NCBI GenBank assembly: GCA_020851375.1
Contig: JADZCV010000025.1
Span: forward strand, 62,001 to 126,000
Direction: 5' to 3'
DNA length: 64,000 bases
From: Nitrospirota bacterium
GTDB lineage: Bacteria; Nitrospirota; 9FT-COMBO-42-15; HDB-SIOI813
Position numbers and translations under genes: made by a program. This document shows positions 41,371 through 61,164 of this stretch, in pieces. Under the pieces are notes generated by a model, which saw only the letters and a list, made by a program, of their open reading frames with translations, made no database searches and had not been told where the DNA came from. Numbering within the stretch: position 1 is the stretch's first letter; every line of letters begins with the position of its first letter.

Positions 41371-42190
41371 ACCAGGTGTTAAAACTACGTTTGTAATTGG
41401 ACTACCGAGGTCTGGCACAACTTTGCTGGCATACATGCTTGCCGGAGGGGGTGGTGTTTTGTCTTTAAGCGAACCATTCCTTTCACTATCCGCGCGTCGC
41501 CATAGATTGCTTAATTGGCTATACTTCCCTGAAATTCTAAAGTGCCGAATCAATCCACCCATGGATTGCAATGAGGAAGATTTCCTACATTATTTAAAGG
41601 GCTTCTCTAACAAACTCGGACTCTCGTCACTGGTCATCAAGGAGACATATCGCCTGGCCCCTTACCTGGAAAACAGGGCGTTGATGAACTATATAGCAAC
41701 CTGTGGCGATCCGGTAGCAGCGATTATGCGACACCCCTACGACACAGCCAGTTCAACACTCCTGTGGGCCCGTCATCAATTACGGGGGGTACCTGGAATA
41801 GTAAATCGAATTGTCGTTCCCCGCTTTCCGGAATTTTCGGACGACCGTCAGGTCGTTGAGTGGTTTGCAAGAAACTGGGTAAGCTTTGCAGACTGGTGCA
41901 AACGTACGCAGCCTTTTATCATCAAATACGAAGATCTCGTGAGGAACCCAGGCCCTGCGTTGGAGATGCTTTGTGAACGATGTGCCATTCCTTTTACCCC
42001 CAAAATGCTTGATAATAACTCCCCCCGCTTCTTTTCCGGCATGAGTGGCGATCCCGGAGGGATGAATAAGCACAGAAAGAAGCTTAACGTGAGGCCGGTA
42101 GGCCGGAGCGACGATCTGAAGCCGGAATTTCTGGATATTATAAAGAAGACATGCGGCGAGGCTGCAGAGGAAATGGGGTACACACTATAA
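41342..42190 (+). CDS. Sulfotransferase
   Basis: A 282-residue PAPS-dependent sulfotransferase-family protein. The 5'-phosphosulfate loop is [14 protein letters not shown] from residue 20. The later [16 protein letters not shown] (near 121-136) fits the 3'-phosphate binding region. KYEDLVRNP (near 197) is a family landmark. It would transfer sulfate from PAPS to a sugar hydroxyl or amine. The ATG at 41342 overlaps the dehydratase gene by 29 bases; an internal ATG at 41360 also fits. It is one of two sulfotransferases in the cluster; no PAPS synthesis genes are present in the window. Confidence 0.88.
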
Positions 42191-42207
42191 GGGCCGACTT
42201 TACAGTT

Positions 42208-43497
42208 ATGGGACAAACCACACATAAATATCTCACAAAATATCTTCAGAATCACAGCATTCACCGAGGTTCTGTTTTGGTCCTTGGGAATAATCCAAAA
42301 TCTTTAGCTTTCCAGTTGGAGCAACTTGGATTTGACGTGCAGAGCATGCCCCTTGACCATTTGAGAAATATGGTGCGAAATCCTGAAATAATTATGAATA
42401 ATCTTACAAAAACTTTCGACATCGTTATATTAGATGATCTACTCCAATACCTGCCCAATCCTAACTCGGTCATTAAATACTTAAAGAAACAGATGGCAAG
42501 AGGTGGAATCCTTATTGTTACGAGTCCCAATGCCGTAAGGGGAAAAATCAGGCTAAAAATATTGATGGGCAAGAATTCATATCCTCTTTTATATAGCGGA
42601 AATGGCAGTGACAGTATTGTATTTGATTATACCAATGCCTTTTATCGGGAAAGTACGTTGGAAGAAATAAGAACGCTATTGTCAAAGGAGTCATTCTATG
42701 TTATTACAGCTTACTTTTTTAATAGGAATAGTGATGGGAATCAAGACAAGCATATCTTAAGATATTTTTATCGAATGCTGCAAAAAATCATACCTTCATT
42801 CAGAAACGATTTTTTTCTGATGGCCAGGGGAAATTTTTCAACAGATTTACCTACTATTAATAAAATGGATGATTTCAAACTTACAAGTATGCATGTATTC
42901 AACTCCAAGTGGCTTTATAACTATGAAACTCCAACATTATTCAACCGTTTTTTTACCAGGCGATGGGATATAGAAGTTTTTAAACAACTACCTGTAAATG
43001 TCAGTTCTTTGCGGATTTTGGATGTTGGTTGCGGATGGGGACGTCTTTTAACTGCATTTGCTGATGCCGGAGCGCTACATTTGGCAGGTATGGATATAGC
43101 TCCCCGAATGGTTGACCTTGTACGGCAGCGCCTTTTTGAACGGGGTGTAACGGCAGAGGTGAAAGTAGGTGATGCTGAGGATGCTATTCCCTGGGAAGAT
43201 GAATCCTTTGATGTGATAACCCTGACAGGATCTCTTCATCATTTTTATCGGCCTTTTGATGCTCTTAGGGAAATGTATAGAGTACTGAATAAGAACGGGC
43301 TTTTAATAATCACGGACCCGTTGTTCTTTCCCCCGATAAGGCAAATACTTAATTACCTCCTGACTTTTAAAGCTGCACAAGGTGACTATCGTTTCTATAC
43401 TCCCCATGAAGTATCAGAAATGTTAGTTTCAATGGGTTTTACAATGAATAAAAAACAACAATGGATCAATTCGTTCCTTGTTAGTGCTTTGAAATAG
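42208..43497 (+). CDS. Tandem methyltransferase: SAM-loop-less domain plus intact class I domain
   Basis: A 429-residue protein from ATG 42208; the frame extends to 42151 without homology. Residues 1-207 are a methyltransferase-like Rossmann domain whose SAM-binding loop is lost (VLVLGNNPKSLAFQ in place of D/E-x-GxGxG). It keeps FDIVILDDLLQYLP and a C-terminal PSFRNDFFLMARG signature. Residues about 225-429 are a normal class I methyltransferase with LDVGCGWGR at 271-279 and the GSLHHF segment. The first half belongs to the repeated family also found at 46840-47436, 53480-54256 and 60406-61161. It probably methylates a glycan intermediate; the first half may bind substrate. Confidence 0.8.
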   Translation: MGQTTHKYLTKYLQNHSIHRGSVLVLGNNPKSLAFQLEQLGFDVQSMPLDHLRNMVRNPEIIMNNLTKTFDIVILDDLLQYLPNPNSVIKYLKKQMARGGILIVTSPNAVRGKIRLKILMGKNSYPLLYSGNGSDSIVFDYTNAFYRESTLEEIRTLLSKESFYVITAYFFNRNSDGNQDKHILRYFYRMLQKIIPSFRNDFFLMARGNFSTDLPTINKMDDFKLTSMHVFNSKWLYNYETPTLFNRFFTRRWDIEVFKQLPVNVSSLRILDVGCGWGRLLTAFADAGALHLAGMDIAPRMVDLVRQRLFERGVTAEVKVGDAEDAIPWEDESFDVITLTGSLHHFYRPFDALREMYRVLNKNGLLIITDPLFFPPIRQILNYLLTFKAAQGDYRFYTPHEVSEMLVSMGFTMNKKQQWINSFLVSALK

Positions 43498-43511
43498 CAG
43501 CAAAAAAATCT

Positions 43512-44657
43512 ATGACTTCAATCAGCAAGAAGATTAAAAATGGGACCCATGTTCTTCGTTCTGTTCTGCAGGCCCCGAAACCAGAGGATTTCTTTTTCCT
43601 AACGTTTGCCATAACCTATCTCTGCAGTTCAAAATGCACGATGTGCAATATATGGCAGAAGTACAAGGAAGATCCTCATAAAAACAAAGAAGAATTAAAC
43701 GTTCAAGAGATCAGGGAAGCATTCAGCAGATCAAATATTCTGAAGAAAGCCCGAATAATCCTTATAACGGGAGGCGAGCCGTTTCTCAAAAGAGATTTCA
43801 GTGACATAATTCTTTTTTTCAATGAACTCAATCCTACAGCTTCTATTATTATAGCTTCAAACGGACTAAGTCCTGATCTCATTAGTGATAAATTGAGAAA
43901 TATAAGGCAGGCCCTGGTGAAGCGGGGGAACAAGGATGTCGTGATAGGGGTAGGCGTGTCACTGGATGGGATGGAGGAAACCCATGATAGAGTAAGGGGA
44001 GTAAAGGGGTCTTTCAAGAACGCATTAAAGACAGTGGAAGTCATAAGGAATATAGAGGGAATATTCACCGGACTCTCCTTTACATTTACCCCCGAGAACT
44101 TTAGAGAATTTTATTCTGTCCGCGAGCTGGCAAAAGAAATGAAGTTGGGTCTCACTTTCCAGTTTGCCCAGACAAGTGGTCATTATTACGAGAATAAGGA
44201 TATACATTTCAATTGGAACCGGAAACAAATTGACGAAGTGAGAGATATTTTAAAAAAGACAAGGTATTTTGATGTAATCCGCAAAGGATTTTTTGATTAT
44301 GGGACCAGCCAGGCGCTCAAGGACCGTTTGCTGAGTTACAATCGTTTTTTTCTGGAACATGTCCTTGAGTATCAGCTTCATCAAGAGAGGCATTTTAATT
44401 GTTTTTCGGGAACACATTCATGTTTTCTCGACCCCTATGGCAACGTTTATCCATGTATCCCCCTTGAAAAAAAAATAGGAAATATTTGTGAAAATAATTT
44501 CGACGATCTGTGGACATCTCCCATGGTGAATGAAATCAGGGAACATATATCGCAGCGGCAGTGCCACTGCTGTTCATTCTGTGATATCCCGAACTCGCTC
44601 CCAAGAAATCTGTGCGTGATCACGTCCAACCTGAAGAACATATTGATGTCAGGATAA
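43512..44657 (+). CDS. Radical SAM/SPASM enzyme (1)
   Basis: A 381-residue protein. The cluster motif is CSSKCTMC (Cys38, Cys42, Cys45), and GGEPFLKRD near 90 is the radical SAM GGE motif. The SPASM part at the end has CFSGTHSC, YPCIPL and the final CHCCSFC group, for auxiliary [4Fe-4S] clusters. SPASM enzymes usually modify peptides, but homologues in glycan clusters oxidise or otherwise modify sugars. It starts 14 bases after the methyltransferase gene. The substrate is unknown. Confidence 0.88.
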   Translation: MTSISKKIKNGTHVLRSVLQAPKPEDFFFLTFAITYLCSSKCTMCNIWQKYKEDPHKNKEELNVQEIREAFSRSNILKKARIILITGGEPFLKRDFSDIILFFNELNPTASIIIASNGLSPDLISDKLRNIRQALVKRGNKDVVIGVGVSLDGMEETHDRVRGVKGSFKNALKTVEVIRNIEGIFTGLSFTFTPENFREFYSVRELAKEMKLGLTFQFAQTSGHYYENKDIHFNWNRKQIDEVRDILKKTRYFDVIRKGFFDYGTSQALKDRLLSYNRFFLEHVLEYQLHQERHFNCFSGTHSCFLDPYGNVYPCIPLEKKIGNICENNFDDLWTSPMVNEIREHISQRQCHCCSFCDIPNSLPRNLCVITSNLKNILMSG

Positions 44658-44712
44658 GACAGTGTGGGAACGCTCGAATGATTGAATCGTAAATGAAAAG
44701 AGGTTATAAAAA

Positions 44713-45555
44713 ATGTTAAGGCGGTTTTCAAAACTAATAAAGGTGATGCACATGAATAAAGAAGATAAATTAAATCATGCAGATGAGATACGCACAGACA
44801 AACACGGAACACTCTGCGATGAAACTCCCGAACAGAAAGCTATCCTTCACAGGGTCTCGGAAGTCGAATGGTATCATTCTATTGATCTTGGGCATGGGGT
44901 GGTGACACGGGGATTATTTGATCACCGTCCTCTGCTGCCGCACTATCATCTTCCGGAGAATTTAAAAAATATGCGGGTTCTCGATGTGGCTACTTATGAC
45001 GGATTTTGGGCATTTGAGTTTGAAAAGCGGGGAGCTGCCGACGTCGTGGCTATGGATATAAAAACCTGGAATGATATTGATATACCACCCCGTATCAGGG
45101 CCGGAGCTTCAAAAGAGATATTGAATACTGAGATGGGAACAGGGTTCAATATTGCCAGGGATATCCTTGGTTCAAAGGTCCAACGGGAAATAATGAATGT
45201 TTATCACCTTAGTCCTGAATGGAGGGGCAAGTTCGATTTTGTGTTTTGCGGTGACTTGTTGCTGCATTTAATGAATCCCATGAAAGCGCTTCAGAACATT
45301 CACAGTGTCGTGTCAGGCTATGCCTACATAGTTGATGTGTTCAATCCGGAATTTGGCGAAGATGATTCAAATGCAATTCTGCGCTATGCAGGCGGTACCA
45401 GCAGAATGGTGTGGTGGAATTTCGGTCTTGGCAGCTTAAAAAAGATGATAAAAGATGCCGGATTTACGAAAGTCGAGGTAATCAGTAAATTTGAATTTAG
45501 TGTACAGGGACAGAAAGAAAAACACTGGCATGTCGCATTCAAGGCTTATCCGTAG
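44713..45555 (+). CDS. Class I SAM-dependent methyltransferase
   Basis: A 280-residue methyltransferase. The SAM loop reads LDVATYDGFWAFEFEKRGA (near residues 94-112), a form seen in CmoB-like and DUF1698-type methyltransferases, followed by VVAMDI. FDFVFCGDLLLHLMNP near 178-193 is the motif IV region. The first methionine at 44713 and one at 44752 both suit the frame; the first has a GAGG site. It lies between a radical SAM gene and the first GT4 gene, so sugar O- or N-methylation is the natural guess. Confidence 0.82.
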   Translation: MLRRFSKLIKVMHMNKEDKLNHADEIRTDKHGTLCDETPEQKAILHRVSEVEWYHSIDLGHGVVTRGLFDHRPLLPHYHLPENLKNMRVLDVATYDGFWAFEFEKRGAADVVAMDIKTWNDIDIPPRIRAGASKEILNTEMGTGFNIARDILGSKVQREIMNVYHLSPEWRGKFDFVFCGDLLLHLMNPMKALQNIHSVVSGYAYIVDVFNPEFGEDDSNAILRYAGGTSRMVWWNFGLGSLKKMIKDAGFTKVEVISKFEFSVQGQKEKHWHVAFKAYP

Positions 45556-45615
45556 CACCCGAAAACCTTAAATAATCCTTACAGGGCTTCCTCATTAATT
45601 CACTATGCAGAGATT

Positions 45616-47439
45616 ATGGGACTGAAGATCGCTATTACATCAACAGTGAGCTGGCCTTATGTCCGGAGAGGGAGCCGCATTACATATGAACTTGCCGTCT
45701 ATCTTGCTAAACAGGGACATGAGGTTCATTATATCAGCACAAAACCGGGGAATGTCAGCAGAATGAAGGCGCAGGATGGAATTGATGCGGAATATTACCG
45801 GCTCATTGAACACCCACTACTCAATGTATGCAGAATACAGAAATTCGATACCTTCTCTCTTTCATGTCTTGGTGCACTTCTTAAGAACGATTATGACATT
45901 GTGCAAACAACGTTTCCCATGGATGCCTTTGCTGCCAGTATTTACAGATCAATTAAAGGGACTCCTTTTGTGCATTATATGTTCGATAGATTTTATCCCA
46001 GATATTACATCACCCCATATGGGAAATTGGTATTTAACAGGTGTATAAGGACCGCCTCCCGAATAGGAACAATAAGCAGCTTTATCAGAGATGACCTAAA
46101 GGAGAAATTTGGTGTTGAAGGAGTTGTGATCCCCGGTACGGTAGATACCGAGCAATTTACACTTTGCAAAGACAAGGATTTCAGTACTCCCTGTATACTG
46201 TCAACTTCATCGCTCCAGGAGCCAAGAAAGCGGGTTGACCTCCTTGTCAGGGCCTTTGAGCGACTCCTTGATCACATGCCGAATGCAGTATTGAAACTCT
46301 CCGGCCATACTGTTCCGGAAAGAACGACAACACTCCTTCAGTCTGTCAGTTCACGAACGCGAAAGTCTATTGAGATACTGGGGGTAGGCAGACGTGAAGA
46401 CTTGCCCTCGCTTTACCGGAATGCGGCTATTTCCGTTTTGCCTTCAGTAAATGAGGCTTTTGGATTAGTCATCCTTGAATCTCTCGCCTCCGGTACTCCC
46501 GTTGTAGGCACAAGAAGCGGCGGCATTCCTGGCATTCTCAATGATCCAAAAACAGGGGTTCTGTTTGAAGAAACAGACGGACCTGAAGAACTATCCAAAG
46601 CACTGATTAAGGGACTGGAGCTGAGCCGTGATCCAGAAACGAGAATGAGGTGCCGCAACCATGCTGAACAATATTCGTGGAGCAGGATAGGGCCGCTATA
46701 TGAAAAACTCTATTCAGATGTCCTCAATGGCAGACGGCCGGGAAAATCCGGTATAGTGAAAAAAAAGATGGCGTCAAAGAAGATCCCGGCATCCGCTGAG
46801 AGTGTGGGAATACATTTAAATTACCGATCAAACAAGAAGTCATTAAGTTGTCTTTTTGATGATGCCATTGACGAGTTAGATATTGATTATGACAATTATT
46901 ACAGGATCGATCTTTATAAACCATATTGCACATACGTTTTGGGGTGGTTGTTTGATCATGGGGTACGAAAAGGCAATGTTCTTGTTGTCGGCTTCTTCAC
47001 GCGTCCTTTGAAGGCATTACTGGAGAAGTGTGGTTTTATTGTCAGGGAGGCCGGGATTGCACAAGGAGACGAATCATTGGAAGATATACCCGGGACCTAT
47101 GATGTCATAACCTGCGACGACATCATTCAGCACTGTGAACATCCAGGAATAATACTTCAGGTGCTGAGAGACAAGCTGAATCCCGGCGGGAAGATCCTGC
47201 TTACAACGGGAAATGCCGCAAATGTGAGTGAAGTGGAGAAATTAATAACTGACGCAGGTTTTTCTATAAGCCAGAGCGGGTATATGATGAAAGAAAAAGC
47301 CATTGCAGGAAGTCTGTTTCCACCCCCTGTTCGTTTATACTTTTATAAAAATTTGTACTATTTTGCTCAAAGGGCATTTCCCCGTATGAGAAGTCATTTC
47401 TTTGTCGCAGCGAGTAGAAAATCAATGTCACAAGTATGA
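45616..47439 (+). CDS. GT4 glycosyltransferase fused to a SAM-loop-less methyltransferase domain (1)
   Basis: A 607-residue protein. Residues 1-375 are a GT4 enzyme with the cluster-specific N-terminal SWPYVRRGSR, a KRVDLLVRAFERLL donor-domain segment, and the E-x7-E motif (Glu280, Glu288). Residues 376-405 are a basic linker. Residues 409-607 are a methyltransferase-like domain: LFDDAIDELDIDYD, a lost SAM loop (VLVVGFFTRPLKAL), YDVITCDDIIQH and the end RMRSHFFVAASR. The GT4 half should add a sugar from a nucleotide donor on the cytoplasmic side. The second half is probably a substrate-binding or accessory module. An ATGA overlap leads into the next GT4. Confidence 0.87.
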   Translation: MGLKIAITSTVSWPYVRRGSRITYELAVYLAKQGHEVHYISTKPGNVSRMKAQDGIDAEYYRLIEHPLLNVCRIQKFDTFSLSCLGALLKNDYDIVQTTFPMDAFAASIYRSIKGTPFVHYMFDRFYPRYYITPYGKLVFNRCIRTASRIGTISSFIRDDLKEKFGVEGVVIPGTVDTEQFTLCKDKDFSTPCILSTSSLQEPRKRVDLLVRAFERLLDHMPNAVLKLSGHTVPERTTTLLQSVSSRTRKSIEILGVGRREDLPSLYRNAAISVLPSVNEAFGLVILESLASGTPVVGTRSGGIPGILNDPKTGVLFEETDGPEELSKALIKGLELSRDPETRMRCRNHAEQYSWSRIGPLYEKLYSDVLNGRRPGKSGIVKKKMASKKIPASAESVGIHLNYRSNKKSLSCLFDDAIDELDIDYDNYYRIDLYKPYCTYVLGWLFDHGVRKGNVLVVGFFTRPLKALLEKCGFIVREAGIAQGDESLEDIPGTYDVITCDDIIQHCEHPGIILQVLRDKLNPGGKILLTTGNAANVSEVEKLITDAGFSISQSGYMMKEKAIAGSLFPPPVRLYFYKNLYYFAQRAFPRMRSHFFVAASRKSMSQV

Positions 47440-48557
47440 AGATAGCAATTACTTCGCCTTTTGGCTGGCCGTATGTACGACGTGGAAACCGTTTTGCCCA
47501 TGATCTTGCCGCCTATCTTGCGGAGAGGGGTCATCAAGTGCATTTCATTACGACTAAGCCCGGGGTCACCAGCAGAATGAAGCTGCGAGGCAAGGTACTG
47601 GAAGAACACCGCAGGCTTTTTTGCTACCCTTTTCTGTCTCTTCTGAACATTGAAATGTGGGAAACATTTGCGTTAGGATGTTTTCGTTCTCTCATGAGAG
47701 AGAAGCATGACATTGTTCAGACATTCTGGCCTCCGGATGCCTTTGCTGCCAGTCTTAACAGGTCCTTAAGGGGCATCCCTTTTGTACTTCTGATGGTGGA
47801 CTCAAATCATTTTTATCGCCCGACCGCGTTCGGCAAGCCGATGCTAAAAAGGGCCTTGAAAAATGTATCCTGTCTTGAAGTACCCAGCACCTATGTGAAT
47901 GAAGAGCTGAAATCGCAGCTTAACCTGGAAGGGACATTGATCCCCATGCCTGTCAATATGGACGAGTTTACCCCTCGCAATGATAAGGGGCTCAATCCCC
48001 CCCGCATTCTTTGTACATCCTCGTTTCTTGATGCGAGGAAACGGGTATATCTCCTTGTTCAGGCATTCGAGCTGCTTCTTAAGGAGATTCCAAACGCCAT
48101 TTTACAACTATCCGGCCACGGGACCATTGACCAGGCAGCGATGGGGATTCTCAATCTGGTTACGCCGAAAACGAGAAGGTCCATCGAGATACTGGATGTT
48201 GGTAAATTGGAGGATATGCCAAAGATTTACAGCCAGGCCTCGTTAACCGTCCTTCCTTCACTGAGGGAAGCTTTCGGGATGGTCATCATAGAATCACTTT
48301 CCTCGGGAACCCCTGTAGTAGGTGCGAGGAGCGGTGCTATTCCTGAAGTGATTAATGATCCGGAAGTGGGTATACTGTTTGAGGAAACCGGGGGCCCGAA
48401 GGAATTATGCGAGGCCCTTGTCAGGGGGCTGGAACTGGCCCGTGATCCTCAAACGATCACGCGGTGCCGGAAATACGCCGAACGCTATAGCTGGCATGAG
48501 CTGGGTCCCCGGTACGAGGCTCTCTACCTTGGGATCCTGAATGGGCATAAACAGTGA
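47436..48557 (+). CDS. GT4 glycosyltransferase (2)
   Basis: A 373-residue GT4 enzyme, paralogous to the GT half of the 45616 gene. It has GWPYVRRGNRF near residues 11-21, KRVYLLVQAFELLL near 205, and the E-x7-E motif in REAFGMVIIESL. The YSWHELGPRYEALY end is shared by all four paralogues. Here the protein ends where the others continue into the methyltransferase-like domain. It begins with ATGA overlapping the previous stop, so the two GT4 enzymes are translated together and probably act in sequence. Donor and acceptor are unknown. Confidence 0.9.
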   Translation: MKIAITSPFGWPYVRRGNRFAHDLAAYLAERGHQVHFITTKPGVTSRMKLRGKVLEEHRRLFCYPFLSLLNIEMWETFALGCFRSLMREKHDIVQTFWPPDAFAASLNRSLRGIPFVLLMVDSNHFYRPTAFGKPMLKRALKNVSCLEVPSTYVNEELKSQLNLEGTLIPMPVNMDEFTPRNDKGLNPPRILCTSSFLDARKRVYLLVQAFELLLKEIPNAILQLSGHGTIDQAAMGILNLVTPKTRRSIEILDVGKLEDMPKIYSQASLTVLPSLREAFGMVIIESLSSGTPVVGARSGAIPEVINDPEVGILFEETGGPKELCEALVRGLELARDPQTITRCRKYAERYSWHELGPRYEALYLGILNGHKQ

Positions 48558-48578
48558 ATAAAAACGAACGGAAACATC

Positions 48579-49736: not shown

Positions 49737-49767
49737 CGGCAAGTATGTATCTGCATAAAGGACGGTC

Positions 49768-51201
49768 ATGAAGAACGGTTCTCCTGTATCAGAGAAGATA
49801 ATTTGGGCCATAGGAGCATGTTTCATTATGGCAGGTGTTATTCTCAATGAGAAAATTCTTGCTGCAATATTCAGTGCAGACGGAGCCATAGCTGTTCCGC
49901 ATCGAATCGTAATCGGAATCATTGATATCCTCTTAATAGGCCTGGGGTTGGCAGTTATCATTTACAGAAAGCGCCTTACGGGAGAGATATTGTCTGGTAT
50001 AGCAGGTGTATTAATTATCCTGTCAGGTTTGCTGTTCAATGTGAGGTTCCTTGCGATATTGCTGGATTTAGAGATGAGCCCTCTGAATAAGGTCATTGTG
50101 GGGGTATTTGAACTTTACCTGATAGGTACCGGGGTATTATTTATTTTATTGAGAAAGGCTTTTCAGCTAAAAAATGTATTACTGTATGTGTTCTCAAGTG
50201 TGCTCTCTCTTTCCCTGTTTTTGGCATATGACTGTTATACGGCCTATCGGTTTTTTTCAAAAGACAACCGGTTGCATATATACAATGTTCACGTTGAGGA
50301 CAAATACCTTGGCTGGAAACCCAAAGCCAACAGTATCGGCAAGCATGTCTATTACTCAAATTTTAATGTTGAATATGTGATTGATGAAAATGGATACAGG
50401 AAAATAAAAAAACCGAAAGAGCCTGTCTCCAGCATCTATTTTTTCGGTGACTCCTTCACCTTTGGCCAGGGAGTGAGCGATGATGACACATTCCCGAGCA
50501 TTATAAAGAGGAAATATGTCAAAGAGGATATTAGTGTATATAATGCAGGGGTCCTTGGATATGGAATTGTCCAGATGTTTCAACGATTCCTGAATATGGA
50601 GGACCGGATAAAATCCGGAGATATGATCATTTTTACCCCTCTGTCGCAAGATATAGAAAGGAACATGAAAGATTTTTATATGCCCTATCTTCTTTCCTTT
50701 TTCTATGAGAAACTGGAATATTACCCCTCGTATGATAATGGGGTCATAAGGCCCTGCAAACTGGAAAATAATATGTTCAACTTATTTAAGTTGTTGATTC
50801 TTAAGGCGCCGTATACCGGGAACTTCTGGACAGCTATATACAAGAAAACTATTCCGGACACGACAAAGGAAGCCATCGGGATCATGGATATCATCAGGGA
50901 AAGAACAGAGGCAAGGGGCGGTAAATTCTATCTCTTCTTCCTGCCTAACCTGGAGGAATGCCTTCGTGGTAAATATACTAACGATATCTCCGGATTTGAT
51001 CATTTCGATATCATGCTTTACTTCCCGTCCAAATGGAAGGAATTGGAAAAGATAAAATTCGAAAATGACAGGCACTGGAATGTTCGCGGACATGAGATAG
51101 CAGCAAGGGCAATCGTTAAGACCCTCATAGATAAGGGGGCACTTGAACGGCAAGACTTAAGGCAGAAGGGAATTGATAGTGGATCCTTTTCGTATTACTA
51201 A
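49768..51201 (+). CDS. Membrane-anchored SGNH hydrolase or acyl-transfer enzyme
   Basis: A 477-residue protein. Five hydrophobic helices occupy about residues 10-163. A soluble SGNH domain follows (about 175-465) with FFGDSFTFGQG (nucleophile Ser in GDS 227-229), YNAGVLGYG (block II, near 258) and DRHWNVRGHE (catalytic Asp and His, near 433-442). This places an esterase or O-acyltransferase outside the cytoplasm, resembling the AlgJ/AlgX type of glycan acylation enzyme. It probably adds or removes acyl groups on the glycan. ATG 49768 has an AAAGGA site. It overlaps the next gene by 29 bases. Confidence 0.8.
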   Translation: MKNGSPVSEKIIWAIGACFIMAGVILNEKILAAIFSADGAIAVPHRIVIGIIDILLIGLGLAVIIYRKRLTGEILSGIAGVLIILSGLLFNVRFLAILLDLEMSPLNKVIVGVFELYLIGTGVLFILLRKAFQLKNVLLYVFSSVLSLSLFLAYDCYTAYRFFSKDNRLHIYNVHVEDKYLGWKPKANSIGKHVYYSNFNVEYVIDENGYRKIKKPKEPVSSIYFFGDSFTFGQGVSDDDTFPSIIKRKYVKEDISVYNAGVLGYGIVQMFQRFLNMEDRIKSGDMIIFTPLSQDIERNMKDFYMPYLLSFFYEKLEYYPSYDNGVIRPCKLENNMFNLFKLLILKAPYTGNFWTAIYKKTIPDTTKEAIGIMDIIRERTEARGGKFYLFFLPNLEECLRGKYTNDISGFDHFDIMLYFPSKWKELEKIKFENDRHWNVRGHEIAARAIVKTLIDKGALERQDLRQKGIDSGSFSYY

Positions 51202-52318: not shown

Positions 52319-52345
52319 TTTGCGGAAAAGCACGGCTGAATCAAG

Positions 52346-53470
52346 ATGAGTCTTAAAATAGCAGCAACATCACCTATTGGCTGGCCCTATGTGAGAAGGG
52401 GAAATCGCTTTACGTATGAGCTTGCTGTTTATCTTGCAAGTCAGGGTCATCAGGTGCATTACATCACATCAAAACCCGGAAGAGTGAGCAGGGAAAAGAA
52501 AAAGGATAATCTCCGGCTTAAATATCACCGGCTCTTCGGACACCCCATGCTTTCCCGTCTGAACATCCATTTTTATGAGACCTTTGTCCCCATATGCCTT
52601 TACTCGCTTAGTCGGGAAAGGTACGATATTGTGCACTCCTTTTTGTACGCCGACGCTTTTGCAGCGGGTCTGGTGAAGAGATTCAAAGGAATGGCCCTGG
52701 TTCCTACTCTGACCGATGGGATCCCGATGTATTGGCGAACGAGATTCGGAAAGTCCATGTTCAGCAGCGTTGTGAAAAGTGCGTCCCGGTTTCATGCGCC
52801 CAGCGAGTTTGTAAGAGACTGTTTTAAACGGGAGTTTCATGCGGAATCAGAGGTAATTCCTCCTCCTGTGAATACTGAACATTTTACCCCATGTGATAAG
52901 AAGGATCCCGGCAGCACTAAAATCCTATGTACGTCTGCTCTCCACGTTGGATCAAAAGGGATTGACATGCTGGTCAGTGCCTTTGAGCTTCTTCTGGGGC
53001 ATATTCAGGACGCTGTTTTGCAATTATCAGGTCACATTGACGACAATACAAAAAGAAAGTTACTGAAATCTGTAGGTCCAAAGACCAGAAAGGCCATCGA
53101 GATCAGAGGGGTTGGACTTCAGGCGGCTCTGCCGATGCTGTATCGCGAGGCGTCAATCACCGTTCTTCCTTCTCTTGATGAACCGTTCGGTATGGTGATG
53201 CTTGAATCTTTGGCCTCCGGCACTCCCATAGTTGGAACACGGAGCGGCGCCATTCCGGAGATCATTACTGACCCCGATATCGGTGTATTGTTTGATCATT
53301 CAGATGGTGCAGAAGGTTTGTGCGAGGCGATGATCAGGGGCGTTGAAATTGCGAAAGACCCGAAGACACCAGGGCGGTGCCGTATCTTTGCAGAAAGGTA
53401 CTCCTGGAAAGCGGTGGGGCCGAAATATGAACAAATGTATTACAGGATTCTTGATGAGAAAGGTAGATAA
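52346..53470 (+). CDS. GT4 glycosyltransferase (3)
   Basis: A 374-residue GT4 paralogue with GWPYVRRGNRFTYELAVYLA at the N-terminus. Its donor-domain motif LDEPFGMVMLESL keeps both glutamates of E-x7-E, with Pro where the others have Ala. The typical end YSWKAVGPKYEQMY is present. Nine bases after its stop comes a separate gene for the SAM-loop-less methyltransferase-like domain, which in two other paralogues is fused to this same enzyme. The split gene pair and the fusions therefore describe one functional unit. Confidence 0.9.
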   Translation: MSLKIAATSPIGWPYVRRGNRFTYELAVYLASQGHQVHYITSKPGRVSREKKKDNLRLKYHRLFGHPMLSRLNIHFYETFVPICLYSLSRERYDIVHSFLYADAFAAGLVKRFKGMALVPTLTDGIPMYWRTRFGKSMFSSVVKSASRFHAPSEFVRDCFKREFHAESEVIPPPVNTEHFTPCDKKDPGSTKILCTSALHVGSKGIDMLVSAFELLLGHIQDAVLQLSGHIDDNTKRKLLKSVGPKTRKAIEIRGVGLQAALPMLYREASITVLPSLDEPFGMVMLESLASGTPIVGTRSGAIPEIITDPDIGVLFDHSDGAEGLCEAMIRGVEIAKDPKTPGRCRIFAERYSWKAVGPKYEQMYYRILDEKGR

Positions 53471-53479
53471 ACAGGCATA

Positions 53480-54256
53480 GTGAATAAAAAACAATTGAAC
53501 AGTCTCTTTGATGATGCGATAGATGAACTGGAAATAACCTATGATGTTTATTTCGGGATAGAGCGCTACCGGCCAAGGTGTGTGCATACGATGCACCGGT
53601 TATTATCCAGCAGGATTGAGGGAGGTAAAGTACTGGTCTTGGGATCAAACGAAAAACCGTTCACCATGATGTGTGAAAAACTTGGCTTTCGTGCCGAGGG
53701 ATTCAGTTTTAGACCAACAACAAACAATGTGCATGAAGATGAAAACAGTACGGCATCATCTGAGACTGAATTAATCAAAAACATGAAAGGCGACTTTGAT
53801 ATTATAATATGTGATGATATCCTTCAAAACATTCAATATCCGCAAGATATGTTAATACTTCTGAAAGAACATTTACGGCCTGGTGGGTTGCTCATGCTTA
53901 CAACTCCGAATGTGGCGAGAGGCACATCACGTCTGTGGCTGCTGAGTGGGAGGAATATCTATCCAACACCATCAGTTTCCGAAACAGAGGAAGGCGAAGT
54001 TCTGCGCCTTATACCGTACCGGGAATATACCCTCCGTGAGATTGAAAGGCTGGTAACGGATATCGGGTTGGAACGGTTACAGAGTGAATTTATAATCGGG
54101 AAAAACGTAAATGCGAATATGTGGCCTCCTATGCCGGTAAAGGAATATTTGTTACAGACCCTATTTCTTGCAGTCCAGAAAATTGCAGCCCCGCTAAGAA
54201 GTTACCTTTTTGTGGCAGCGCGAAATCCTCTTTTGAAAGGGAAACAAGTCACGTAA
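53480..54256 (+). CDS. Free-standing SAM-loop-less methyltransferase-like protein
   Basis: A 258-residue protein (GTG start at 53480). It is homologous to the C-terminal halves of the 45616 and 59179 genes and to the first half of the 42208 gene. Shared marks: LFDDAIDELEITYDVYFGIE at the start, VLVLGSNEKPFTMM in place of the glycine-rich SAM loop, FDIIICDDILQNIQYP, LRPGGLLMLTTPN, YREYTLREIERLV and the final PLRSYLFVAARN. SAM binding is doubtful because no GxGxG is left. It directly follows a GT4 gene and should work with that enzyme. Confidence 0.78.
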   Translation: MNKKQLNSLFDDAIDELEITYDVYFGIERYRPRCVHTMHRLLSSRIEGGKVLVLGSNEKPFTMMCEKLGFRAEGFSFRPTTNNVHEDENSTASSETELIKNMKGDFDIIICDDILQNIQYPQDMLILLKEHLRPGGLLMLTTPNVARGTSRLWLLSGRNIYPTPSVSETEEGEVLRLIPYREYTLREIERLVTDIGLERLQSEFIIGKNVNANMWPPMPVKEYLLQTLFLAVQKIAAPLRSYLFVAARNPLLKGKQVT

Positions 54257-54263
54257 AGACACT

Positions 54264-55286
54264 ATGAAAAATGCAATTGAAATCAGAAACTTAAAGAAGG
54301 TCTTTCAGCAACATATAAGCCTCATAGACTATTTTTCAGGACCAAAGAAGGTAGCGAATGCGCTTAATGGCATATCCTTTGATATCAAAGAAGGAGAGAT
54401 ATTCGGACTCCTCGGCCCCAACGGCGCCGGAAAAACAACTCTCATCAAGATACTTACAACACTCATCATACCGACAGAAGGGACAGCAAAGGTTCACGGC
54501 TACGACATTATTAAGGATGAATGGCAAGTCAGGAACATTATCGGGCTTATCCATAGTGACGAGAGGAGTTTTTTTTGGAGGTTGACAGGCAGGCAGAACC
54601 TGGAATTCTTTGCCGCAATCTTCCACATCCCGGGACGATTGGCACGAATCAGGATTGATGAAGTGATAGCCCATGTCGGTCTGGAAAGGCATGCCGATAA
54701 TCTATTCTTTAATTATTCAACAGGTATGAAGCAGAGATTGGCCATAGCCCGCGGTCTATTGAATAGTCCAAGAATTCTTTTTATGGATGAAGCCATGAGG
54801 AGTATTGATCCGATCAGTACTCAAAAAATCAGGGAATTCATTAAGACAATGATACGGGAAAGAAATAATATGACTATAATAATGGCTACTAATCGCCTGG
54901 ATGAAGCAACAAATCTGTGTGACCGTGTTGCTATCCTCAACAAGGGACACCTTGTGAAATGCGGCAGTATTGGAGAACTTGAAGCGGTCGCCAGGGGACC
55001 TGTTGAATACGAAATTGAGGCAAGGAATTTGCGCGAAGAAGTTCTTGAGCAGATTCGCCAGATAAAATGTGTTCACGATTGTAAGAAAACCTTCAATATG
55101 AATGGAAATGTTGGAATCACGATAACATTGGATAATGAGGAGGAAAGCATCCATATGGTATTACAACAGATTATATCAAGCCATGGATATATTGTACGAT
55201 GTGACCGCAGGGAGCCTTCATTTGATGAAACCTTTAACAGGATAATTACTGAGTTTGAAGCCTCTCAGGAAAGAGGTGGGATATGA
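54264..55286 (+). CDS. ABC-2 type transporter ATP-binding protein
   Basis: A 340-residue ATPase. Walker A GPNGAGKTT lies near residues 53-61, the signature YSTGMKQRL near 152, and Walker B RILFMDEAMRSIDP near 168-181. The switch His normally found at the end of the core is replaced by Asn (IMATNRLDEA). A C-terminal extension (about 245-340) resembles the DrrA-type substrate or regulatory tail. The permease gene overlaps its stop by 4 bases (ATGA). The pair could export a lipid-linked glycan or a glycolipid; drug export is the usual annotation of such pairs, but the context favours glycan. Confidence 0.9.
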   Translation: MKNAIEIRNLKKVFQQHISLIDYFSGPKKVANALNGISFDIKEGEIFGLLGPNGAGKTTLIKILTTLIIPTEGTAKVHGYDIIKDEWQVRNIIGLIHSDERSFFWRLTGRQNLEFFAAIFHIPGRLARIRIDEVIAHVGLERHADNLFFNYSTGMKQRLAIARGLLNSPRILFMDEAMRSIDPISTQKIREFIKTMIRERNNMTIIMATNRLDEATNLCDRVAILNKGHLVKCGSIGELEAVARGPVEYEIEARNLREEVLEQIRQIKCVHDCKKTFNMNGNVGITITLDNEEESIHMVLQQIISSHGYIVRCDRREPSFDETFNRIITEFEASQERGGI

Positions 55287-56089
55287 TAAGAACTGCACTC
55301 GCATTCATTAAAAAAGACTTTTTGATAATGATGAGTTATAAGTTCAACTTTGTTCTCCAGATAGCAGGCATCCTGATAATGGTAACAATTATCTATTTTC
55401 TTGGAAGCCTTGTGGGTATCGCTGATATCCCCTTTCTTAAACCGTATGGCGGAAATTATTTCGGATTTCTTATGATTGGTATTGCCTTTTCAGATTATGC
55501 CGGGATTAGTATTAATTCTTTTTCCGGAAACATACGGGACGGGCAGTTGACAGGGACACTTGAAATTATATTAACCTCTCCAACGCGGTTGTTTACCTTT
55601 TTATTTTCTTCTTCATTATGGAGCTATATTTTTACTACTTTTCGTCTTTTTATGTATTTCCTTGTCAGTATCTTTGTCTTTGAACTAAAGATAGGTATGA
55701 TTAATATACCTGCGGCATTTGTCATCTTTGTACTCTCTATGCTGACTTTTATTGCTATTGGAATCATTTCTGCCTCGTTGGTACTTGTTGTTAAACAGGG
55801 GGACTCTGCTTTAAGAAGGATAGGAGGGGTTTCTATGGTTGTCAGTGGTGTTTTGTTTCCTACTGAATATCTCCCTTCTTTCCTGAATAAAATCTCCCTT
55901 TACCTCCCTTTCACCTACACGTATCGCGGTTTAAGGCTTTCCATCCTTCAGGGATATTCCATTACGCAATTACAGGGAGATATTACCGCTTTGTCCGGTT
56001 TTGCAATGGTATTCATGGCAGTCAGCTTGATCGCTTTTCCTTACGCAGTAAAAAAAGCAAAGATTAAAGGTTCATTAGCTCAATATTAA
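55283..56089 (+). CDS. ABC-2 type transporter permease
   Basis: A 268-residue membrane protein with about six hydrophobic helices, spaced from residue 20 to 262. Typical ABC-2 features are the amphipathic N-terminus, the EIILTSPTRLFTFLFSSSLW segment after helix 2 (near 90-110), and the conserved FPTEYLPSFLNKISLYLPFTY before helix 5 (near 190). It forms the membrane channel for the ATPase encoded just upstream. The two genes are translationally coupled. The size and fold match the TagG/Wzm and DrrB group. Confidence 0.9.
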   Translation: MIRTALAFIKKDFLIMMSYKFNFVLQIAGILIMVTIIYFLGSLVGIADIPFLKPYGGNYFGFLMIGIAFSDYAGISINSFSGNIRDGQLTGTLEIILTSPTRLFTFLFSSSLWSYIFTTFRLFMYFLVSIFVFELKIGMINIPAAFVIFVLSMLTFIAIGIISASLVLVVKQGDSALRRIGGVSMVVSGVLFPTEYLPSFLNKISLYLPFTYTYRGLRLSILQGYSITQLQGDITALSGFAMVFMAVSLIAFPYAVKKAKIKGSLAQY

Positions 56090-56096
56090 AAATAAA

Positions 56097-57104
56097 ATGA
56101 TTCAGGCCACATCTCCATTTGTCTCAGTGGTAATACCCACTTACAATAGGCGGAAACTTCTAAAAAGTACTATTGAATCGCTCCTTCATCAATCATATCC
56201 AATGGATCGTTATGAGATCATTGTTATAGATAATTCTTCATCTGATGGGACAGAGGAGATGGTGAATTCACTGCGGCAGAATTCACTGTGTAGTTTATCG
56301 TACTATAGGAAGAAAAACGAAGGCCCTGGCGCCTCCAGGAACCTTGGGATTGCAAAGACCAAAGGGACCATAATAGCATTTACCGACAGTGACTGTGTTG
56401 CTGACACTGACTGGCTGAAAAACGGAGTAGCCAGGATGACAAACGGGATTGGTCTGGTTCAGGGAAAGACACTGCCTCATCCGGGGCAGCCGCAAAGATT
56501 ATTGCAGCATACGATGAATGTTGTTACGGAAAACGGGTTTTATCCAACATGCAATATTTTTTACCGTAAAGACGCCCTCGATCAGGTGGGTGGTATTTCC
56601 CCTGACTTCTGCGGATTAAACTGCTTTGGAAAACCGAGGTGGGGAGGTGAGGATACTGATCTGGCATGGAAGATAAAAGAGCATGGCTGGAGGAGCGTCT
56701 TTGCGGATGATGCTGTTATTTACCACCACGTATTTATATTTACTTCCCTGAAGGAAGTGATCAGGTATGCCCGTTTCAATGTGATCTTTGCATTAGCCCA
56801 TAATATAAAAAGACATCCTGCGCTGCGGAATGCTATTCTCTACCGGAAGATTTTTAAATCGAAGCAAAGGGCGCTTTTTTATCTCTTTGTGTTTTCGCTG
56901 ATCTCTGGAAATGTTATCCACTGGGGCTTTTATTTTTTTACCCTCCCCTATCTGGCAAGACTGATGAGGGTGACTTTCCATGGACGGTCTATCAGGTCGT
57001 ATTACAAGGGGCTATCCCTTTTCTTGTTTATCATTTTTGTTGAAATTGTTGAGTCTGTTCTTTCAATATGTGCAAGCTTGAGATACCGGACAATTATACT
57101 TTAA
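56097..57104 (+). CDS. GT2 glycosyltransferase (1 of a tandem pair)
   Basis: A 335-residue enzyme. The GT2 (GT-A) core shows VVIPTYNRRKLLKSTIESLL at residues 10-29, VIDNSSSDGT near 42-51, the metal site TDSDCVADTDW (the DxD-type Asp-Ser-Asp), and the GGEDTDLAWKI segment near 182-192 for the general base. C-terminal hydrophobic helices (about 255-335) attach it to the membrane. It shares near-identical DNA patches with the next gene. It follows the ABC permease by 7 bases. It is predicted to add a sugar to a lipid-linked intermediate. Confidence 0.92.
   Translation: MIQATSPFVSVVIPTYNRRKLLKSTIESLLHQSYPMDRYEIIVIDNSSSDGTEEMVNSLRQNSLCSLSYYRKKNEGPGASRNLGIAKTKGTIIAFTDSDCVADTDWLKNGVARMTNGIGLVQGKTLPHPGQPQRLLQHTMNVVTENGFYPTCNIFYRKDALDQVGGISPDFCGLNCFGKPRWGGEDTDLAWKIKEHGWRSVFADDAVIYHHVFIFTSLKEVIRYARFNVIFALAHNIKRHPALRNAILYRKIFKSKQRALFYLFVFSLISGNVIHWGFYFFTLPYLARLMRVTFHGRSIRSYYKGLSLFLFIIFVEIVESVLSICASLRYRTIIL
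56577..56670 (+). repeat. Near-identical 94-base patch shared by the two GT2 genes (copy 1)
   Basis: This stretch matches 57605-57698 with one mismatch (T/C). A second shared patch, 56376-56427 and 57405-57456, also differs at one base. The surrounding sequence of the two genes is much more diverged, so local gene conversion or strong recent exchange is likely. Confidence 0.8.
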
Positions 57105-57125
57105 CAGAAATCCATTAGCAGCGTA

Positions 57126-58136
57126 ATGACATCAAATAAGTTGCCATTTATTTCTGTGGTCATCCCGACATACAATATGCGAGACCTCCTGAGGGACACT
57201 GTCGAATCACTGTATAAACAATCATACCCCAAAGATCGTTATGAGATTATCGTTGTTGACAATTCGTCAACTGACGGAACGAAGGACATGATGGATTCCC
57301 TGCAAAAGAAGTCACCATGTTTGATACAATATTATATCAAAGAAAATGAAGGCCCCGGTTCCTCCAGAAACCTGGGAATTGCAAAGGTAAGAGGCACTAT
57401 TATCGCATTTACCGACAGTGACTGTGTGGCTGACACTGACTGGCTGAAAAACGGAGCAGCTAAAATGACTGATGGCATTGGAATTGTGCAGGGGAAGACT
57501 CTGCCCAACCCGTATCAAACGCTTAGCACGTTTTCAAAAACCCAGTCTGTCCCGAACGAGAATGGAATGTATCCAATGTGCAATATATTTTACCGAAAAG
57601 AGGCTCTCGATCAGGTGGGCGGTATTTCCCCTGACTTCTGCGGATTAAACTGCTTTGGAAAACCGAGGTGGGGAGGTGAGGATACTGATCTGGCATGGAG
57701 TGTTAAAAAGCAGAGATGGGGGAGTGTCTTTGCGGATGACGTGATTATCTATCATCACATATTCCATTTGCGTCCATGGCAGGCAATATTCGGTTTTCGC
57801 AACTACCAGTTTCAGGGCCTGTTTTTTGCCGTGCCTTATCTTCTGAAAAAGCATCCGGAGTTGAGGAAACACATGTACTATAGATTCTTCCTGAGCAGGA
57901 AAAAGGCTTTATTTGACATCTTTTTTATATCGCTGCTGTCCGGGATATTGATTCACCCGGTCTTTTTCTTCTTTTCAGTTCCCTACCTTATAGAGTTAAA
58001 AGATGTTTTTCTCGGACGCCCTTTAAAGGAATATCATCGCGGCCTTGTGGTGTTTGTTATCAGGGTCCTCAGCGATTTTATTGATTTTATACTCCTGCTC
58101 AGCGGCAGCATCTGGAACCGCAGCATAATCCTTTGA
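57126..58136 (+). CDS. GT2 glycosyltransferase (2 of a tandem pair)
   Basis: A 336-residue paralogue of the preceding enzyme with the same plan: VVIPTYNMRDLLRDTVESL, VVDNSSTDGTKDM, the TDSDCVADTDW metal site, GGEDTDLAWSV and C-terminal membrane helices. Differences cluster in the central acceptor region (LPNPYQTLSTFSKTQS) and in the C-terminus, so acceptor specificity may have changed. The metal-site and catalytic DNA patches are almost identical to copy 1. It starts 21 bases after the first copy. Confidence 0.92.
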   Translation: MTSNKLPFISVVIPTYNMRDLLRDTVESLYKQSYPKDRYEIIVVDNSSTDGTKDMMDSLQKKSPCLIQYYIKENEGPGSSRNLGIAKVRGTIIAFTDSDCVADTDWLKNGAAKMTDGIGIVQGKTLPNPYQTLSTFSKTQSVPNENGMYPMCNIFYRKEALDQVGGISPDFCGLNCFGKPRWGGEDTDLAWSVKKQRWGSVFADDVIIYHHIFHLRPWQAIFGFRNYQFQGLFFAVPYLLKKHPELRKHMYYRFFLSRKKALFDIFFISLLSGILIHPVFFFFSVPYLIELKDVFLGRPLKEYHRGLVVFVIRVLSDFIDFILLLSGSIWNRSIIL

Positions 58137-58140
58137 ATTT

Positions 58141-59142
58141 ATGTTCAATAAAATGAGAAATACAATAAATAAATGCGTAATCATTTACAACAGATATCTT
58201 AAGGCGGGTATAAAGAAAAATAGATATAAAAAAATAACAAAGATGTTTCTATCTATAATGAATTTCCTGTTTCTGAAGAAGCCTTATATTTTAATCGTTG
58301 AAACTGGAACAGTTTGCAATATAAATTGCCCGACATGTCCTACACCCAGGGATATAGTGGTAGATGCGAGAACTATTAAAAATATGGGCTTTGATGATTT
58401 CAGTAAAATAATAGACAATTCATATAAATCATTCTCTGCTGTCCTGTTATATTGGAGCAACGAACCACTTCTAAATAAAAATATAGCCAAAATGGTTCGT
58501 TATTGTAATGAATTAAACTTATATACATTCATTTCAACAAATGTGATGTTACTTACTGGGAATAAATTCAAAGAATTAAGCGAATCAGGTCTCGATGAAT
58601 TATTAGTCTGCATTGATGGTTTTTCTCCGGACACCTATGAACCTTTCAGAAAGGGAGCGAAATTTGAAATGGTCAAAAGAAATATAGAAAATATATGTAG
58701 AATAAAAAGAGAATTAAGAGCCGTAAACCCCTGGATAGAAATTCAATATATTGAAACAAAAGAAAACTCTAAAGAAATTACTTTATGCAGGGAATGGGCA
58801 GAAGAAATTGGGATTGACAGCTTTCGTGTGCAATCATTATACATTACAAAACATTTGAATGATTATCAAACATTACGTGAAGAATTCTACACAGAAAAAA
58901 ACTGGAAAGAACAGGATAAGAAAATATCAATGAAAGATAAAAAAGCATGCAGAAATGCTGAATCAACAGTTTGTGTTCTTGTAAACGGTCAGACTACAAT
59001 TTGCTGCTATGATATAAAAGGAACTTTTAGTTACGGTAACTTATTAGAAGATTCTTTTGAGAGTATAACCAAAAATGATAAATATACAGAAATAATCAGT
59101 AAAGGTAAAGAGCATGAATTAAGTATTTGTAAAAAGTGTTAA
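58141..59142 (+). CDS. Radical SAM enzyme (3), A/T-rich
   Basis: A 333-residue protein. The cluster motif CNINCPTC has Cys59, Cys63 and Cys66. LYWSNEPLLN near 103-112 stands in for the GGE region, as in the glycan-associated group, and the end carries CVLVNGQTTICCYD and a terminal CKKC for an auxiliary cluster. The gene is visibly richer in A and T than its neighbours (many AAA, ATA and GAA codons), which suggests separate acquisition. It has the same plan as the gene at 63180. The start at 58141 lies 4 bases after the previous stop. Confidence 0.85.
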   Translation: MFNKMRNTINKCVIIYNRYLKAGIKKNRYKKITKMFLSIMNFLFLKKPYILIVETGTVCNINCPTCPTPRDIVVDARTIKNMGFDDFSKIIDNSYKSFSAVLLYWSNEPLLNKNIAKMVRYCNELNLYTFISTNVMLLTGNKFKELSESGLDELLVCIDGFSPDTYEPFRKGAKFEMVKRNIENICRIKRELRAVNPWIEIQYIETKENSKEITLCREWAEEIGIDSFRVQSLYITKHLNDYQTLREEFYTEKNWKEQDKKISMKDKKACRNAESTVCVLVNGQTTICCYDIKGTFSYGNLLEDSFESITKNDKYTEIISKGKEHELSICKKC

Positions 59143-59178
59143 GCAGCATAATAATAATGAACAGGATAAAGTAAAGGG

Positions 59179-61164
59179 TTGTCAATTAAAATAGCTGTAA
59201 CATCCGCATTTGGCTGGCCTTATGTGCGAAGGGGGAACCGGGTTGCCTATGAACTTGCCGTCTATCTTGCCAGTCAGGGGAATGAAGTCCATTTTGTAAC
59301 GACGAAACCGGGTATTCTCAGACGGGAAAAGATCATTGGGAATCTTATTATCAAATATTATCCTGTGATAGATCATCCTTTTCTCACGAGATTTAACCTT
59401 GAGTACTGGCAAACATTTGCACTGACCTGCATCAGTGCCCTTGTGAAAGAAAATTATGATCTTGTATATACATGTCTGACAATGGATGCCTGTGCTGCCG
59501 GTCTTAATAAAACTATCAGGGGAACTCCATTTATCCCCATATTGATTACCGGTGATCCCCTGTATAGAGACGCCCGATGGGCTAAGCGGTTTTTTCGCAG
59601 GGCTATAGAAAAGGCATCCCGCCTGGTGACCATAAGTCATTTTGTTAATGAAATATTAAAGAGAGATTTCAGTCTTGAGGGGGTCATGATACCCTGTCCT
59701 GTTGATACATCAAAGTTTTATTATACCGGGAAGAAGGAGACTGGTTTCCCCAGGATTCTTTGTACTGCTACACTTCTTATGGAAAGAAAAAGAGTCCCTT
59801 TGCTCGTTAAAGCCTTTGAAAGACTCATTGATAATGTTCCTGACGCGGTTTTGCAACTTGCCGGTGAAACGACACCCGAGGTCACACGGAATCTTCTAAT
59901 GTCTGTTAATTCAAAAACAAGAAAATCCATTGAAATTGTGGATATCACATCAGACGCTGTCCTTTCTTCGTTTTACAGGAGTGCAACTATTACTGTCCTG
60001 CCGTCGCTCAACGAGGCATTTGGAATGGTGACGACAGAATCACTGGCATCTGGAACGCCGGTTGTGGGAACAAGGAGCGGTGGAACAGCAGAGATACTTG
60101 ATGATCCACGTGTTGGTGTATTATTTGAGCCTGGTGACGGCCCGGAAGAACTCTGTAAAGCGCTTATAAAGGGGATAGAATTGTCAGGAAACCCGGATAC
60201 ACCAAGGCGGTGCAATGAACATGCGCAACGATATTCATGGAATAACCTGGGTCCTAAATATGAAGAACTGCAGGAAGGAGTCCTTGGTGAGATCAGGAAG
60301 GTGTCCGGAACACCCAAAAAGATTGGATCAAAAATAACAATAACCTCTTTCAAGCCAAATCAATCTTCTTTTACCAAAGGTAAGGCTGATAAGAGTGTGT
60401 TGAGTAAATTATTTGTGGATAATCTGGATTCATTGGAGATCACGTCAAGTATTTATTACAATATTGACAGTCGTGAACCAAGATATCTTCATTTGCTGGA
60501 CTGGATATTTAGCAAGGTGCGTCATCCTGATTCTGTACTCGTTATGAGTTTGGACCCATCCTTCCTGATCCTGCTCTTAAAGGAGTGTGGGATCGAAGCA
60601 AAGCAGGTTATTACTCCCACATGGTTAGATGGTACAAACAAGACGGTCTCTTTTGGGATAGACCCGGCTACTCAAGATGAGGAGCAGATCACCGGCAGTT
60701 TTGACATCATCATATGCGATGATCTTCTCCAGTATTGGCCAGCACCCCTTCGGGGACTTGAGGAGCTGAAGAAACGATTGAAACCTGAGGGGGTATTGCT
60801 GTTGAGCACTCATAATGCGGCGAGTGGCGTATCCAGGCTGCGCTTATTGACAGGACAAAATGTTTATCCGTGGTTTAATGATAGCACGTTAAAAGGTTCT
60901 GCTTACAGGAACGAAAATGGCTCAAATCTTTATAGGGAATATACCCTGGGAGAGGTGAATGACCTTGTGTCCAGAGCCGGATTTAAAATAATCGAAAAGC
61001 AGTGGATCATCGGCAATAAAAATATTGATAAAAGTGTGAATTTTGCCTCAATAGCTGTCAAGACATATATGGCTCATAAGATCTGCCATAAAATCCAACG
61101 AGTTGTGCCCCGGCTGAGAAGCCATCTCTTTGTGGCTGCAGTAAATTCGCTGGATACCCAATGA
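59179..61164 (+). CDS. GT4 glycosyltransferase fused to a SAM-loop-less methyltransferase domain (2)
   Basis: A 661-residue protein with TTG start at 59179, preceded by AAAGGG. The GT4 half (1-375) has FGWPYVRRGNR at 11-21, and Glu279 and Glu287 for E-x7-E. The second half (about 410-661) carries LFVDNLDSLEITSSIYYNID, a lost SAM loop (VLVMSLDPSFLILL), FDIIICDDLLQYWP, LLLSTHNAASG, YREYTLGEVNDLV and RLRSHLFVAA. It matches the architecture of the 45616 gene. An ATGA overlap couples it to the 670-residue protein downstream. Confidence 0.86.
   Translation: MSIKIAVTSAFGWPYVRRGNRVAYELAVYLASQGNEVHFVTTKPGILRREKIIGNLIIKYYPVIDHPFLTRFNLEYWQTFALTCISALVKENYDLVYTCLTMDACAAGLNKTIRGTPFIPILITGDPLYRDARWAKRFFRRAIEKASRLVTISHFVNEILKRDFSLEGVMIPCPVDTSKFYYTGKKETGFPRILCTATLLMERKRVPLLVKAFERLIDNVPDAVLQLAGETTPEVTRNLLMSVNSKTRKSIEIVDITSDAVLSSFYRSATITVLPSLNEAFGMVTTESLASGTPVVGTRSGGTAEILDDPRVGVLFEPGDGPEELCKALIKGIELSGNPDTPRRCNEHAQRYSWNNLGPKYEELQEGVLGEIRKVSGTPKKIGSKITITSFKPNQSSFTKGKADKSVLSKLFVDNLDSLEITSSIYYNIDSREPRYLHLLDWIFSKVRHPDSVLVMSLDPSFLILLLKECGIEAKQVITPTWLDGTNKTVSFGIDPATQDEEQITGSFDIIICDDLLQYWPAPLRGLEELKKRLKPEGVLLLSTHNAASGVSRLRLLTGQNVYPWFNDSTLKGSAYRNENGSNLYREYTLGEVNDLVSRAGFKIIEKQWIIGNKNIDKSVNFASIAVKTYMAHKICHKIQRVVPRLRSHLFVAAVNSLDTQ

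Follow-up and report, generated by a model that had tools for sequence, protein, structure and literature searches.

A polysaccharide cluster fills the right half of the window, as we call the whole stretch of 64,000 nucleotides analysed here, and it contains four methyltransferase-like domains whose SAM-binding loop appeared to be missing. We asked what these domains are and what they may do beside glycosyltransferases of the GT4 family. We refer to such a SAM-loop-less methyltransferase-fold domain as a pMT. Around the pMTs, the cluster comprises a sugar-phosphate transferase (35545), an export protein (37290), sulfotransferases (41342 and 51173), an ABC exporter (54264-56089) and radical SAM, GT2 and GT4 enzymes, the radical SAM and GT2 assignments being read from the sequences. 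It also holds a membrane protein of about 475 residues with a GDSFTFG motif (49768-51201, no Pfam match), which has a similar counterpart in L064:7699-9123, the two forming a duplicated cluster gene.

Four related domains and the loss of the SAM site

All four pMTs lie on the forward strand. pMT 1 (42208-42855) is the N-terminal half of the open reading frame 42151-43497 and is followed by an intact class I methyltransferase domain (42958-43446; Pfam Methyltransf_11, E 4e-30; motif I LDVGCGWG). pMT 2 (46828-47436) and pMT 4 (60388-61161) continue in frame behind the GT4 domains starting at 45616 and 59179, respectively, whereas pMT 3 (53480-54256) is a stand-alone gene. The start codon of the next gene (61161-63173) overlaps the stop of the 59179 fusion by 4 bases; its 670-residue product, which we label an enzyme of the polysaccharide cluster, has no Pfam or NCBIfam match. 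Pairwise identities among the four domains are 27-38%. When the 53480 protein was searched against its own genome, the other three pMTs were recovered at E-values of 3e-36, 7e-24 and 2e-20, while the next, unrelated place scored 0.009, which rules out a chance resemblance. The original prediction of four related domains at these places was thus borne out, and all four are in open frames. The strand-4 motif FD/YD-[IV]-x-x-x-DD-[IL]-[IL]-Q, which it had described with FD at the start, is matched exactly by every copy (FDIVILDDLLQ in pMT 1). The C-terminal ending R-[SN]-x-[FL]-F-[VL]-x-A was likewise found in all four, but it is not specific to them: it forms the final strand in the parent type of methyltransferase, and the C-terminus of L053, a relative that has the loop, reads FRDDIFLVAIK.

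Judged by their sequences, the pMTs are remote class I methyltransferases of the Pfam Methyltransf_23 (PF13489) type. In a Pfam scan, pMT 3 passed the cut-off of 27 bits for this profile (40.8 bits, E 2.4e-10), as did pMT 4 (the 60406 copy, 32.2 bits); pMT 2 (the 46834 copy) fell below it (23.0 bits), and pMT 1 (the 42208 copy) was merged with its fused neighbour and received no separate score. Comparisons with solved structures, by sequence and by fold, returned class I methyltransferases for the most part, UbiG and CmoM among them, and the nearest named relatives within PF13489 are UbiG, MetW and CmoM. The pMTs have in common with Methyltransf_23 the order of elements, a strand 4 of the form FDxIxxxDxL, a TPN after strand 5, the REYTxxEL motif and the last strand. 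They differ from it by the absence of motif I, of the acid of strand 2 and of the strand-4 E-H, by an additional N-terminal helix and by their coupling to GT4 enzymes. AlphaFold models were weak (mean pLDDT 59.7 for the 53480 protein and 49.5 for the 59179 fusion), too weak for a closed pocket or a GT4 interface to become visible. A Foldseek search with the weak 53480 model gave only class I methyltransferases as top matches, with TM-scores of 0.2-0.4.

The SAM site itself is altered at several positions. The loop D/E-x-G-x-G-x-G of motif I, under a strict match, was found in none of five pMTs (the four of the window and one on a second contig, L039, see below), compared with 37 of 41 wider relatives; the domain fused to pMT 1 also matches. 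The other four relatives carry variants (LLDIGSGP in L012, VLDIPCGEG in L032), or are cut short or have the motif outside the examined stretch. In all five pMTs a valine replaces the motif I aspartate and the second and third glycines are gone. The replacement loops are those given by the original prediction, although it listed them in an order that differs from that of the coordinates: VLVLGNNPK in pMT 1, VLVVGFFTRP in pMT 2, VLVLGSNEKP in pMT 3 and VLVMSLDPS in pMT 4, the sole copy to lack the first glycine as well. The acid at the end of strand 2, which contacts the SAM ribose, is replaced in the five pMTs (FSF, VIT, AGI, MPL and VGI). The E-H of strand 4 reads Q-x in the four window copies, and the glutamate is also a glutamine in L039.

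Among 30 canonical relatives, motif I has an acid in 30, the first glycine in 30 and the third in 29; at the same positions the four pMTs have valine (4/4), glycine (3/4) and K, R or S. Because these 30 sequences were picked by motif pattern, 37 of 41 is the unbiased figure. Moreover, of the stretches compared, the one that was the SAM loop has the lowest conservation among the pMTs (mean pair score 1.26, versus 4.10 in the canonical set), as is expected when the function of a loop has been lost, and strand 4 is their best conserved segment (3.92 versus 3.19). All together, these replacements suggest that SAM binding is gone in the pMT clade.

A single clade under purifying selection

In trees with relatives from the phylum, the four pMTs and L039 formed one clade (support 100/99 and 100/100). 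Four independent losses of the SAM loop are therefore ruled out, and since 37 of 41 relatives retain the loop, we conclude that it was lost once, in one lineage. The loss predicted for all copies is thus real, as one inherited event of the whole clade and not copy by copy. The clade appears to be narrow: no further member turned up in some 450 searched genomes from this phylum or in 247 from the phylum to which the L039 bin is assigned, and no close relative in the plasmids and viral contigs searched, these collections being a sample of known genomes and most relatives being expected in metagenomes. Weaker matches in four genomes (G029, G389, G293 and G570) proved to be intact methyltransferases, and L053 (genome G438) was rejected because its loop, although altered, bears glycines. 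L053:1504-2403 belongs with L014:1399-2259 and L030:1402-2523 to a second methyltransferase family of the phylum, which the tree places close to the pMT clade. Its motif I reads D-[LF]-G-P-[YF]-P-G and no acid follows strand 2, so that, from its sequences, this family is possibly another partly degenerate group.

L039 (JAJRAP010000280.1) is a 3.1 kb contig filed under the Candidatus Methanoperedens bin OWC_0015. It is collinear with window positions 44253-47223 at about 87% DNA identity, over genes for a radical SAM enzyme, a methyltransferase and a GT4-pMT fusion. A search of the bin yielded no further member of the pMT clade or the GT4 clade, and L039 is probably a misbinned contig from a relative of the window's organism. 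The pMT set thus consists of five sequences, four paralogues and one orthologue, the two orthologues being about 75% identical in protein. A loss restricted to this genome, while relatives keep the loop, had been proposed as evidence against a conserved role. Half of this holds: relatives do keep the loop and the loss belongs to one lineage, but this lineage includes the L039 assembly, where the pMT is under selection.

Indeed, compared with L039, pMT 2 has a dN/dS of 0.26 (95% interval 0.14-0.44); the interval lies below 1, hence pMT 2 is under purifying selection, and on this point the original prediction is supported. Values were 0.12 for GT4 45616 and about 1.1 for the linker between the two domains (35 codons, wide interval). 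Within pMT 2, dN/dS was 0.15 in the part with the N-terminal helix and 0.32 in the core; the two intervals overlap. The copy on which selection was measured is also the one with an internal deletion in the window: it is shorter than L039:2595-3095 by about 40 residues behind strand 5 and by another 15 or so in front of strand 4. These features could be those of a relic in decay, left by a one-time fusion of a GT4 with a methyltransferase that spread through module duplication and has no function now, and the roughly 55 missing residues and a core that evolves faster than the GT4 (0.32 versus 0.12) would agree with it. We consider a relic improbable, however, given a dN/dS clearly below 1, four open copies, the stand-alone 53480 gene among them, and a strand 4 that is nearly invariant across paralogues of 33-38% identity.

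GT4 partners, linker and the additional helix

Three of the four pMTs are linked to a GT4 enzyme, two by fusion and one as a gene that starts 9 bases after a GT4; pMT 1 instead shares its reading frame with an intact methyltransferase. The window encodes four GT4s of one clade on the forward strand, marked by WPYVRRG, all with the Pfam domains Glyco_transf_4 and Glycos_transf_1 and with the E-x7-E motif (EAFG/EPFG..E). Two are the GT4 domains of the fusions, at 45616-46725 (WPYVRRG, intact motif EAFGLVILE) and 59179-60291 (EAFGMVTTE). The stand-alone GT4 at 52346-53470 lies immediately upstream of pMT 3, and the GT4 at 47436-48557, whose start codon overlaps the stop of the GT4-pMT 2 fusion, has no pMT of its own. 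About 2.3 kb beyond the window end is a fifth GT4 of the clade (C25:128339-129457, or L064:5343-6476), 39% identical, with WPYRRRG and no pMT domain. Among 296 genomes, the WPYVRRG-type clade was found in this genome alone, plus L039.

The unconserved linker between GT4 and pMT 2 spans 46726-46827 (forward strand), and the stand-alone 53480 protein starts exactly where the linker ends in the fusions. Of the original prediction that GT4 and pMT work as one unit, the close linkage is supported: three of four copies are linked, fused and split forms both occur and the break falls in an unconserved linker. "One unit" is nevertheless too strong, because a methyltransferase is the fusion partner of pMT 1 and the clade includes two GT4s without their own pMT. 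The predicted domain places also stood, except that in the fusions the domains begin slightly earlier, with an additional helix that starts at 46828 in pMT 2 and at about 60388 in pMT 4. This N-terminal stretch, xLxxLFDDAxDxLxI, is common to the three GT4-linked pMTs and L039 and absent from pMT 1, before which no such helix encoded out of frame was found. In the model of the 53480 protein, weak overall, residues 3-15 are predicted helical (pLDDT about 75). Four residues of the 53480 protein, D112, D113, Q116 and N144, are invariant among the pMTs; they lie where strands 4 and 5 end, which in class I methyltransferases is the side of the substrate.

Possible roles and known systems

The methyl-donor site is lost, selection continues and three copies are GT4-linked; hence the pMTs are probably helper domains and not methylating enzymes, a lineage-specific pseudo-methyltransferase probably serving GT4 enzymes. 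The reading that we prefer, with about even chances of being correct in full, is that the pMT is a SAM-independent class I methyltransferase fold, now an auxiliary domain of this GT4 clade in the polysaccharide cluster. As alignment and tree show, a Methyltransf_23-type enzyme lost motif I, the strand-2 acid and the strand-4 glutamate once and was duplicated afterwards. Selection has continued to act on the fold and on the D-D-x-x-Q where strand 4 ends, as the comparison of pMT 2 with its orthologue shows. The N-terminal helix of the GT4-linked pMTs may dock on the GT4, and the bound pMT may stabilise or activate the GT4 and help to keep the glycan acceptor in place on what used to be the substrate side, a role that the invariant D112, D113, Q116 and N144 allow. 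To keep the pair together, a flexible linker would be enough, as would simple co-expression of adjacent genes. This reading is weakened by pMT 1, carried by a methyltransferase, and by the GT4s at 47436 and C25:128339-129457 without a pMT of their own. A broader version, in which the SAM-dead fold with its docking helix is required by the GT4 clade, sets acceptor specificity and also partners a methyltransferase, coordinating several glycan-building enzymes, is possible but rather doubtful.

The pMT could also be a targeting module that binds a glycan or lipid carrier and, with no preference for GT4, recruits three GT4s and one methyltransferase to the growing polysaccharide, its acceptor side being kept. 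It is favoured by the occurrence of the domain on two different enzyme types of a single pathway and by the four residues kept or newly fixed on the substrate side while the SAM side decayed. Yet only the GT4-linked copies have the additional helix, a pattern that speaks for contact with the GT4, and the methyltransferase fold has no known glycan-binding signature; we therefore regard a targeting module as unlikely, if worth weighing. Less probable by far is an active methyltransferase whose atypical SAM site is built from other residues and which transfers a methyl group to the sugar that the GT4 has just attached. The overall fold and many family motifs are kept, pairs of a glycosyltransferase and a methyltransferase are common in polysaccharide pathways, and the unusual GPxPG loop of the L014, L030 and L053 family, which also lacks the strand-2 acid, indicates that SAM loops can drift. 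Against this, the motif I aspartate, glycines 2 and 3, the strand-2 acid and the glutamate of E-H have all gone, and the loop is unconserved even among the pMTs, one of which has lost the first glycine too. The auxiliary GT4 domain remains our preferred reading. If it is true, some "methyltransferase" genes in polysaccharide clusters may methylate nothing, and sugar methylation predicted from them would need revision.

Literature searches for a glycosyltransferase with a pseudo-methyltransferase returned nothing relevant; non-catalytic glycosyltransferase partners are already known in the form of heme-less P450 homologues, and we did not find any methyltransferase-based one described. METTL14 and Trm6 are methyltransferase folds that do not use SAM and act as partner subunits of methyltransferases on RNA. 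pMT 1, a dead fold fused to an intact methyltransferase, resembles this arrangement; in contrast, three of the four pMTs go with glycosyltransferases. EryCII is a P450 homologue without the heme cysteine and the partner of the glycosyltransferase EryCIII; through an added helix it binds EryCIII close to the acceptor site, and it stabilises and activates this enzyme (PMC3391682). Like members of the EryCII/DesVIII family, the pMT is a cofactor-dead member of an enzyme family, encoded beside a glycosyltransferase and equipped with an added helix. Unlike them, it has a methyltransferase and not a P450 fold (its relatives are methyltransferases only), its partners are GT4 polysaccharide enzymes and not enzymes of macrolide antibiotics, and fusions also occur. 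By analogy, the logic of EryCII/EryCIII, a dead fold with an added helix and a glycosyltransferase partner, would fit the pMT/GT4 pair.
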